The translations under genes and the position numbers were made by a program. From Methylacidiphilum kamchatkense Kam1 (GTDB lineage Bacteria; Verrucomicrobiota; Verrucomicrobiia; Methylacidiphilales; Methylacidiphilaceae), in contig NZ_CP037899.1 in the NCBI RefSeq assembly GCF_007475525.1, forward strand, positions 806,001-870,000: 64,000 nucleotides of DNA. The letters are read 5' to 3'. Positions 46,881 through 48,084 of this stretch are shown one piece after another. Every line of letters starts with the position of its first letter. Position 1 is the first letter of the stretch. The notes below the pieces were generated by a model that worked only from the letters and a program-made list of their open reading frames with translations, searched no databases and was not told where the DNA came from.

Positions 46881-47417
46881 ATGAGAACAGAAAAAATAGC
46901 TTTAAAAGAACAAATTTCTGAAATTGTTAAGGCTTCTTCATTGATCGTTTTGATCGATTTTACGGGGCTAAAGGTTGCCGTTTTTTCTGAATTAAGAAAA
47001 AGGCTAAGAGCGGTTAATTGTCGCTGCCTTGTTTTGAAAAATACATTGCTAAGGCTTGCATTAGAAGAAGCCAAAATGATTATGCCTCAGCAGAATGATT
47101 CTACTGTAGAGAGCTTATTGAAAGGTCCAACGGCGATTCTGTTTTCGGAAGCTAAAGATATAGCTGGGGTGGCCAAAGTTTTGAAAAATTTTATTGCTGA
47201 GTTTCAACTGCCAAAAGTTAAGGGCGCTTTCATGGACAACGCCCTTATTAGCGAGCATGATTTTCTGAAATTGGCGGAGTTGCCTAGTTTGGAAGTTTTA
47301 AGGGGACAAATTCTTGGGACTCTTCAATTACCTGCGGTAAGATTGGTGAGATTAATTAACGAACCAGCTGCTGCCCTTGCACGATTAGTAGAGATCTATT
47401 CAAAGAAAGAAAATTAA
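46881..47417 (+). CDS. rplJ: 50S ribosomal protein L10
   Basis: 178 aa. It has a helical N-terminus (KIALKEQISEIVKASSLIVL), LIDFTGLKVAVFSELRKRLR, VLKNTLLRLALEEA and KGAFMDNALISEHDFLKLAE, and a C-terminal helix that binds L7/L12 dimers. It starts only 13 bases after rplA, leaving no room for the usual L10 leader upstream. Instead a 277-base gap with a structured RNA follows it. Confidence 0.95.
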   Translation: MRTEKIALKEQISEIVKASSLIVLIDFTGLKVAVFSELRKRLRAVNCRCLVLKNTLLRLALEEAKMIMPQQNDSTVESLLKGPTAILFSEAKDIAGVAKVLKNFIAEFQLPKVKGAFMDNALISEHDFLKLAELPSLEVLRGQILGTLQLPAVRLVRLINEPAAALARLVEIYSKKEN

Positions 47418-47616
47418 AAACCGTGCATTGTCTTATTATAGAGAATGGAAAATAAATTTGTTTATCACGGAAAAGACACCTCTTCCAACTAAGAGAAAAA
47501 CGGAGAAAATTTTTGGATTTTATATGTCAGAAAAGTTTATCCTTTGTAAAGTATTTTTTTTGAAAACATTCAAGAAAAATAGGGACAAAGGAACATAAAA
47601 AGAAGAGGGCGAAATG

Positions 47617-47678
47617 TCCACCTAGCCTTGGAGCCCTCCAAGGAGAATTGACAGAGCGGGTGCCTGTCTCTAGGTGGA
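47617..47678 (+). ncRNA. Three-way-junction RNA element between rplJ and rplL, candidate regulatory leader
   Basis: A closing stem of 9 perfect pairs (TCCACCTAG 47617-47625 with CTAGGTGGA 47670-47678) encloses two hairpins. One is CCTTGGA-GCCC-TCCAAGG (47626-47643, 7 perfect pairs). The other is GACAG (47650-47654) with CTGTC (47664-47668) around AGCGGGTGC. The element ends 6 bases before the rplL ribosome site GGAGG (47685-47689). CCTCC at 47635-47639, in the first hairpin's loop and 3' arm, is complementary to that site, so a switch that hides it is possible. The structure is seen; the regulatory role is inferred. Confidence 0.65.
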
Positions 47679-47694
47679 ATGAAAGGAGGATACA

Positions 47695-48084
47695 ATGGCT
47701 GATCTGGATGCGCTTGTCGATCAATTAAGTAAACTGACGATATTGGAAGCTTCTGAGCTAGTAAAAAAGTTGGAAGCCAAGTGGGGGGTTAGTGCTGCAG
47801 CTCCTGTAGCAGTGGCAGCAGCAGCCCCGGCTGGAGCTCAGCAAGCTGCAGCAGCTCCTGCTGAAGAGAAAACAACCTTTGCGGTTTATCTGAAAGAAAT
47901 TGGGCCAAATAAAATTGCCGTGATTAAAGAGGTGAGGGCGGCGATTGCGGGACTTGGGCTGGCAGAAGCCAAAGCGCTTGTCGAAGGGGCTCCAAAACTT
48001 CTAAAAGATGGGGTATCAAAGGAGGAAGCTGAAGAGATAAAGAAAAAAATAGAGGCTGCTGGAGCTAAAGTCGAAATTAAATAA
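47695..48084 (+). CDS. rplL: 50S ribosomal protein L7/L12
   Basis: 129 aa. It has the N-terminal dimerisation helices [20 protein letters not shown], an Ala-rich hinge and a C-terminal domain with [20 protein letters not shown] and [20 protein letters not shown] then [10 protein letters not shown]. It forms the multicopy ribosomal stalk with L10. A perfect AAAGGAGG site precedes it. The large gap and structured RNA upstream suggest separate control from rplJ. Confidence 0.97.

Follow-up and report, generated by a model that had tools for sequence, protein, structure and literature searches.

A conserved three-way-junction RNA between rplJ and rplL in a class of Verrucomicrobiota

A structured RNA that is missing from Rfam is located just upstream of rplL in most sampled families of the Verrucomicrobiota class that includes Methylacidiphilum kamchatkense Kam1. 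We are close to certain that it is a genuine RNA acting in cis on rplL, and it probably lets the cell adjust its amount of ribosomal protein L12. A ribosome requires several copies of L12 but only one of L10, and how one operon yields more L12 than L10 is a standing question. An RNA that sits exactly between rplJ and rplL, and does so class-wide, makes this question directly testable. It also adds a family of three-way-junction RNAs with strong covariation, one subtype of which has two alternative partners for a single loop.

The element lies in a 64,000-nucleotide stretch of M. kamchatkense Kam1 DNA, which we call the window. The gene order here is rplK-rplA-rplJ-rplL-rpoB, and from rplA to rpoB it is the same in relatives. 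Upstream of the element, the open reading frame of rplJ (ribosomal protein L10) occupies positions 46881-47417 of the + strand. Downstream, that of rplL (ribosomal protein L12) occupies positions 47695-48084 of the same strand and has relatives in 316 of 321 genomes. The sequence and its open reading frames confirm the spacing pointed out in the preliminary description, with only 13 bases between rplA and rplJ and a long gap of 277 bases from the end of the rplJ stop codon (47417) to the rplL start (47695). The RNA is single-copy in the genome, which rules out a mobile repeat, and a scan of the + strand beside it found neither a promoter nor an intrinsic terminator. The genus has, between rplJ and the element, a short sequence resembling a hairpin (CCTTTGTAAAG, 47541-47561 in the window) and then a T run. 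This hairpin is imperfect in the window, and perfect and terminator-like in genomes G004 and G002.

The three-way junction spans positions 47617-47678 and consists of stems P1, P2 and P3, all read on the + strand. P1 joins its 5′ strand, UCCACCUAG (47617-47625), to its 3′ strand, CUAGGUGGA (47670-47678), through nine pairs, seven of which have changed on both sides among 45 sequences. P2 is a hairpin (47626-47643) in which 47626-47632 pair with 47637-47643 around loop 2, GCCC (47633-47636). Six of its seven pairs have changed on both sides and 100% of cells are paired in an order-wide alignment. The linker J2/3, AGAAUU (47644-47649), which has the form NNAA(A/U) in nearly all members, leads into the P3 hairpin (47650-47668). 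There, 47650-47654 pair with 47664-47668 (five pairs) and, past one bulged A, 47656-47657 pair with 47662-47663 (two pairs), enclosing loop 3, GGGU (47658-47661), which is complementary to loop 2. Both-side changes occur in six of the seven P3 pairs in the order-wide alignment. The preliminary description had placed stems of nine, seven and five pairs six bases before the Shine-Dalgarno sequence of rplL, GGAGG (47685-47689), with every coordinate correct. The two pairs at the top of P3 and the bulged A are additions to it.

Folding energy alone is no more than suggestive. The 83-nucleotide element has a predicted energy of -32.1 kcal/mol (z = -3.2), which none of 200 dinucleotide shuffles equalled, and its stems have predicted pair probabilities of 0.88-1.0. 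Because a 121-nucleotide segment gives a z of only -1.2 against shuffles, it is conservation and covariation that settle whether the structure is real. The element precedes rplL in all five genomes of the genus and in six genomes of the sister genus, and a pattern scan names members of the two as Methylacidiphilum and Methylacidimicrobium. The outer part of P1 differs between these genera, with pairing kept and a shift of one base. A covariance model built from 11 sequences (R1) finds the element in 43 of the 62 genomes of the order at E < 1e-5, while a second model (R2), run on 335 genomes of the class, has matches in 58 of them. These matches lie between rplJ and rplL in 57 of 58 cases, with the order rplA-rplJ-RNA-rplL-rpoB within the DNA fetched. 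One R2 match (L101) was judged to be due to chance, as rplA, rplJ, rplL and rpoB are all missing nearby.

Forty-six R2 loci were aligned with MAFFT, without fitting the alignment to the structure. In this alignment, 90.8% of cells are paired, compared with 33-49% in slid controls, and 20 of 27 scored pairs (a set that includes four loop 2-loop 3 pairs) show changes on both sides. Such changes amount to 232 cells, against 88 in shuffles. Within the window's own family, the element was not found at one locus (L013, genome G005), even though rplJ, rplL and about 130 bases between them are present there. Nor was it found in two reduced 0.9 Mb genomes of family f22 (L165 and L166; genomes G084 and G076), whereas L125, from a larger f22 genome, has it.

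Most other sampled families of the class also hold a three-way junction in the rplJ-rplL gap, with a different sequence. This second subtype follows the pattern UCGUCG-P2-UNAAA-P3-CGACGA and has GGCU-type loops. In a MAFFT alignment of 34 sequences, likewise not fitted to the structure, 89.9% of cells pair, 18 of 24 pairs have changed on both sides, and 140 cells carry such changes against 42 in shuffles. A covariance model from second-subtype sequences (R3) extends the subtype to more genera, among them the large genus g17 of family f11, and rplL is directly downstream in all 30 loci fetched within the class. The R2 and R3 searches usually found one element per genome. The preliminary description had staked its reading on stems and covariation in the rplJ-rplL gaps of relatives. 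Both are present, far above the level of shuffles, and a covariance model has matches that lie nearly all before rplL. In both alignments, variable pairs pass via G-U rather than A-C, and the functional strand is therefore that of rplL sense.

Second-subtype loci such as L121, L139 and L181 have an rplL without a recognisable Shine-Dalgarno sequence, preceded only by an A-rich spacer, and a P1 with a conserved 3:1 internal loop (UCC or AAA opposite U or G). Families f16, f20, f43, f61 and f62 appear to have a third and divergent version of the junction, in which the linker is UUAAA and the loops are not GC-centred (L151, L152, L155, L156, L157, L168 and L169, recognised partly by eye). Outside the class, samples of the whole phylum yielded nothing convincing. 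R3 matches there (L212-L214) were judged to be chance, since rplL is not nearby, as were exact-pattern matches in Planctomycetota and Deltaproteobacteria (L052, L053 and L056), where the junction is not formed.

An early idea of how the fold might work did not survive. The preliminary description proposed that CCTCC at 47635-47639 could pair with GGAGG and so hide the ribosome site of rplL. The predicted probability of this pairing is about zero, forcing it costs about 10.6 kcal/mol, and the Shine-Dalgarno sequence is predicted to be 73-100% unpaired. The complementarity is lost in the sister genus, which has GGAAAGGA in place of GGAGG, and many other members also lack GGAGG before rplL. We therefore reject Shine-Dalgarno hiding as a conserved function, on both energy and relatives. 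The CCUC segment instead matches a conserved strand further upstream and changes together with it.

This upstream strand gives loop 2 a candidate second partner in the window subtype. The sequence GAGGGC (47605-47610, + strand) is the complement of GCCCUC (47633-47638), that is, of loop 2 and the next two bases, and may compete with loop 3. Of 54 distinct loci, 45 have an exact six-base complement no more than 60 bases upstream, where shuffles give 2.0. Strand and loop come as matched sets, AAGGGC with GCCCUU, AAAGGC with GCCUUU, and GAGGGC with GCCCUC. All 21 GCCUUU loops have the matching complement and none of the 21 has that of GCCCUU, while for GCCCUU loops the counts are 17 of 18 for their own and 1 of 18 for the other. 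Loop 2 can have only one partner at a time, loop 3 or the upstream strand, and two states are therefore likely for this subtype. Predicted energies place the junction about 9 kcal/mol ahead of the upstream pairing.

A general upstream competitor was rejected for the second subtype, where complements were counted for loop 2 in 6 of 75 loci (3.5 expected) and for loop 3 in 11 of 75 (2.6 expected). About ten members of this subtype have a hairpin 28-40 bases upstream whose loop, GAAGCC, is complementary to loop 3 (GGCUUC). These loci (L119, L124, L125, L134, L139, L167, L170, L181, L195 and L197) come from several families.

The subtypes share a core anatomy. Stems 1 and 2 abut, and the linker between stems 2 and 3 has AA at its third and fourth positions in 107 of 108 members. 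In the window subtype the P2 loop is GCCC or GCCU and the P3 loop GGGU, GGGC or AGGU; in the second subtype both are mostly RGCY. The two loops are fully complementary in 86 of 108 members and could form their two central pairs in 106, so that, to judge by their sequences, the two hairpin loops can kiss. When the subtypes are crossed, mean loop complementarity is 2.6 and 2.8, down from 4.0 and 3.6. The observed value is not reached by any shuffle across all sequences. Shuffles within subtypes do reach it (536 and 147 of 2000), and the loop-loop covariation therefore rests on few events.

A similar anatomy is found in the GTPase-associated centre of 23S rRNA (helices 42-43-44), a three-way junction with abutting stems 1 and 2, a UUAAA linker between stems 2 and 3, and hairpin loops that touch. 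This likeness makes L11 the main alternative ligand, and the RNA could be supposed to imitate the centre and to be bound by L11, or by L11 and L10. The helices and linkers are laid out in a similar way, although short A-rich linkers like these are common in junctions and not specific. The host 23S rRNA has AUUUAAA at the corresponding place, and L11 and L10 are encoded in one gene cluster. However, the sequence differs, the loops of the centre are not those of the element, and R2 and R3 miss the GTPase-associated site in the host rRNA operon (L020) even with filters off. We consider such imitation quite unlikely, and mimicry of rRNA by sequence is rejected, the host rRNA operon having no match. 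Mimicry of the L1 site was also rejected, as the L1 region of host 23S shares no clear motif by eye.

A more ambitious version would make the element a class-wide switch within the operon. It would set the L12:L10 ratio by mimicking the GTPase-associated centre, with L10(L12)4 and/or L11 binding and the upstream strand competing with loop 3 for loop 2. If true, this switch would take the place of the kink-turn L10 leader found in other bacteria, and we give it little credence. The combination of a junction with kissing loops also brings to mind purine riboswitches, which similarly have three helices and complementary loops. Yet the element precedes rplL only, and not metabolic genes, and all riboswitch families of Rfam are unmatched, leaving a small-molecule riboswitch a highly improbable explanation.

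On balance, we lean towards a leader whose ligand is a ribosomal protein, L10 or L10(L12)4. The mRNA between rplJ and rplL would fold into the junction of P1, P2 and P3, with its complementary, kissing-capable loops. One of the operon's ribosomal proteins, with L10 or L10(L12)4 the best candidate, would bind and stabilise the junction when in excess over rRNA. The bound fold, beside the start site, would then hinder loading of the small ribosomal subunit on rplL, and L12 supply would thereby be tuned separately from that of L10. In the window subtype, the upstream strand may take loop 2 from loop 3 and so produce a second state. Among candidate ligands, L10(L12)4 appears most likely, as it is the regulator of this operon in other bacteria, and hindered initiation is suggested because in most members about 15-40 bases separate the end of the element from the rplL start. 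The blocking step itself is uncertain, because members differ in how far the element lies from the start codon, and in many of them no clear Shine-Dalgarno sequence is seen. Several points count against a leader. The kink-turn, the known recognition element of L10, is not seen in the element, and the element is missing in G005 and in the two 0.9 Mb genomes. Further, L10 itself would escape regulation by an element that stands only before rplL.

Alternatively, the fold might mark or protect a new 5′ end of rplL(-rpoBC) mRNA, raising L12 above L10 with no protein sensor. Its position would suit such a processing or stability element, between rplJ and rplL, where several L12 per L10 must arise, and the stretch between rplJ and the element often contains further hairpins. 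A plain protective stem-loop, however, would need no invariant linker bases, complementary loops or upstream strand that tracks one of them, and we regard this explanation as unlikely.

The element matches no family of Rfam 15, which at gathering score recognises only tRNAs in the window, and no family matches 18 loci of relatives at E 0.05. Literature searches returned no description of the element, with incomplete coverage that makes an earlier description possible. To this extent, the statement of the preliminary description that no element is described at this position holds. It had also proposed a relocated or new autoregulatory leader. A new leader is the best reading of a structure that covaries and is specific to rplL, whereas relocation of the L10 leader in the strict sense is rejected. 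The L10 leader family, RF00557, has no match in the window. A search of 320 genomes of the class gave none over the cut-off, and of ten weak matches that were fetched, not one is near rplJ. Inspection of P1 by eye in 108 members found no bulge followed by tandem G-A pairs, as in a kink-turn. In many members the linker contains UAA, whereas in the window genus it reads AGAAU.

One of the closest known systems is the L10 leader itself (RF00557), the rplJL leader of E. coli and B. subtilis, where L10(L12)4 regulates the operon (PMC4538822, PMC10931766). Both RNAs are structures in rplJ-rplL operon mRNA with probable autoregulation by L10(L12)4. The L10 leader is located before rplJ and has a kink-turn and an unpaired UAA (PMC4538822), whereas the present element is a three-way junction whose place, in every member examined, is between rplJ and rplL. 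A review of where the L10 leader occurs names Fusobacteria, Actinobacteria, Cyanobacteria and Chloroflexi (PMC10931766), and the new family sits in a part of the bacterial tree on which that review's distribution is silent. In architecture, the element resembles the uS15 leader of rpsO in thermophiles, also an mRNA three-way junction near a ribosome site. uS15 represses via such junctions, and stabilisation by the protein may prevent ribosome binding (PMC10931766). The two differ in gene and sequence, and we do not claim the U-G/C-G motif for our element. A 50-genome survey names neither L10, L12 nor Verrucomicrobia (PMC11109978). The same is true of the main text of Eckert and Weinberg 2020, in which the one rplL-like match stands in the S6:S18 row of a table (PMC7247131). 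The leaders predicted in that work stand on the same type of evidence as the element, a covarying, conserved structure upstream of ribosomal protein genes, and the element has one of the general marks of ribosomal-protein leaders: a covarying, conserved cis RNA structure adjoining a ribosomal protein gene.
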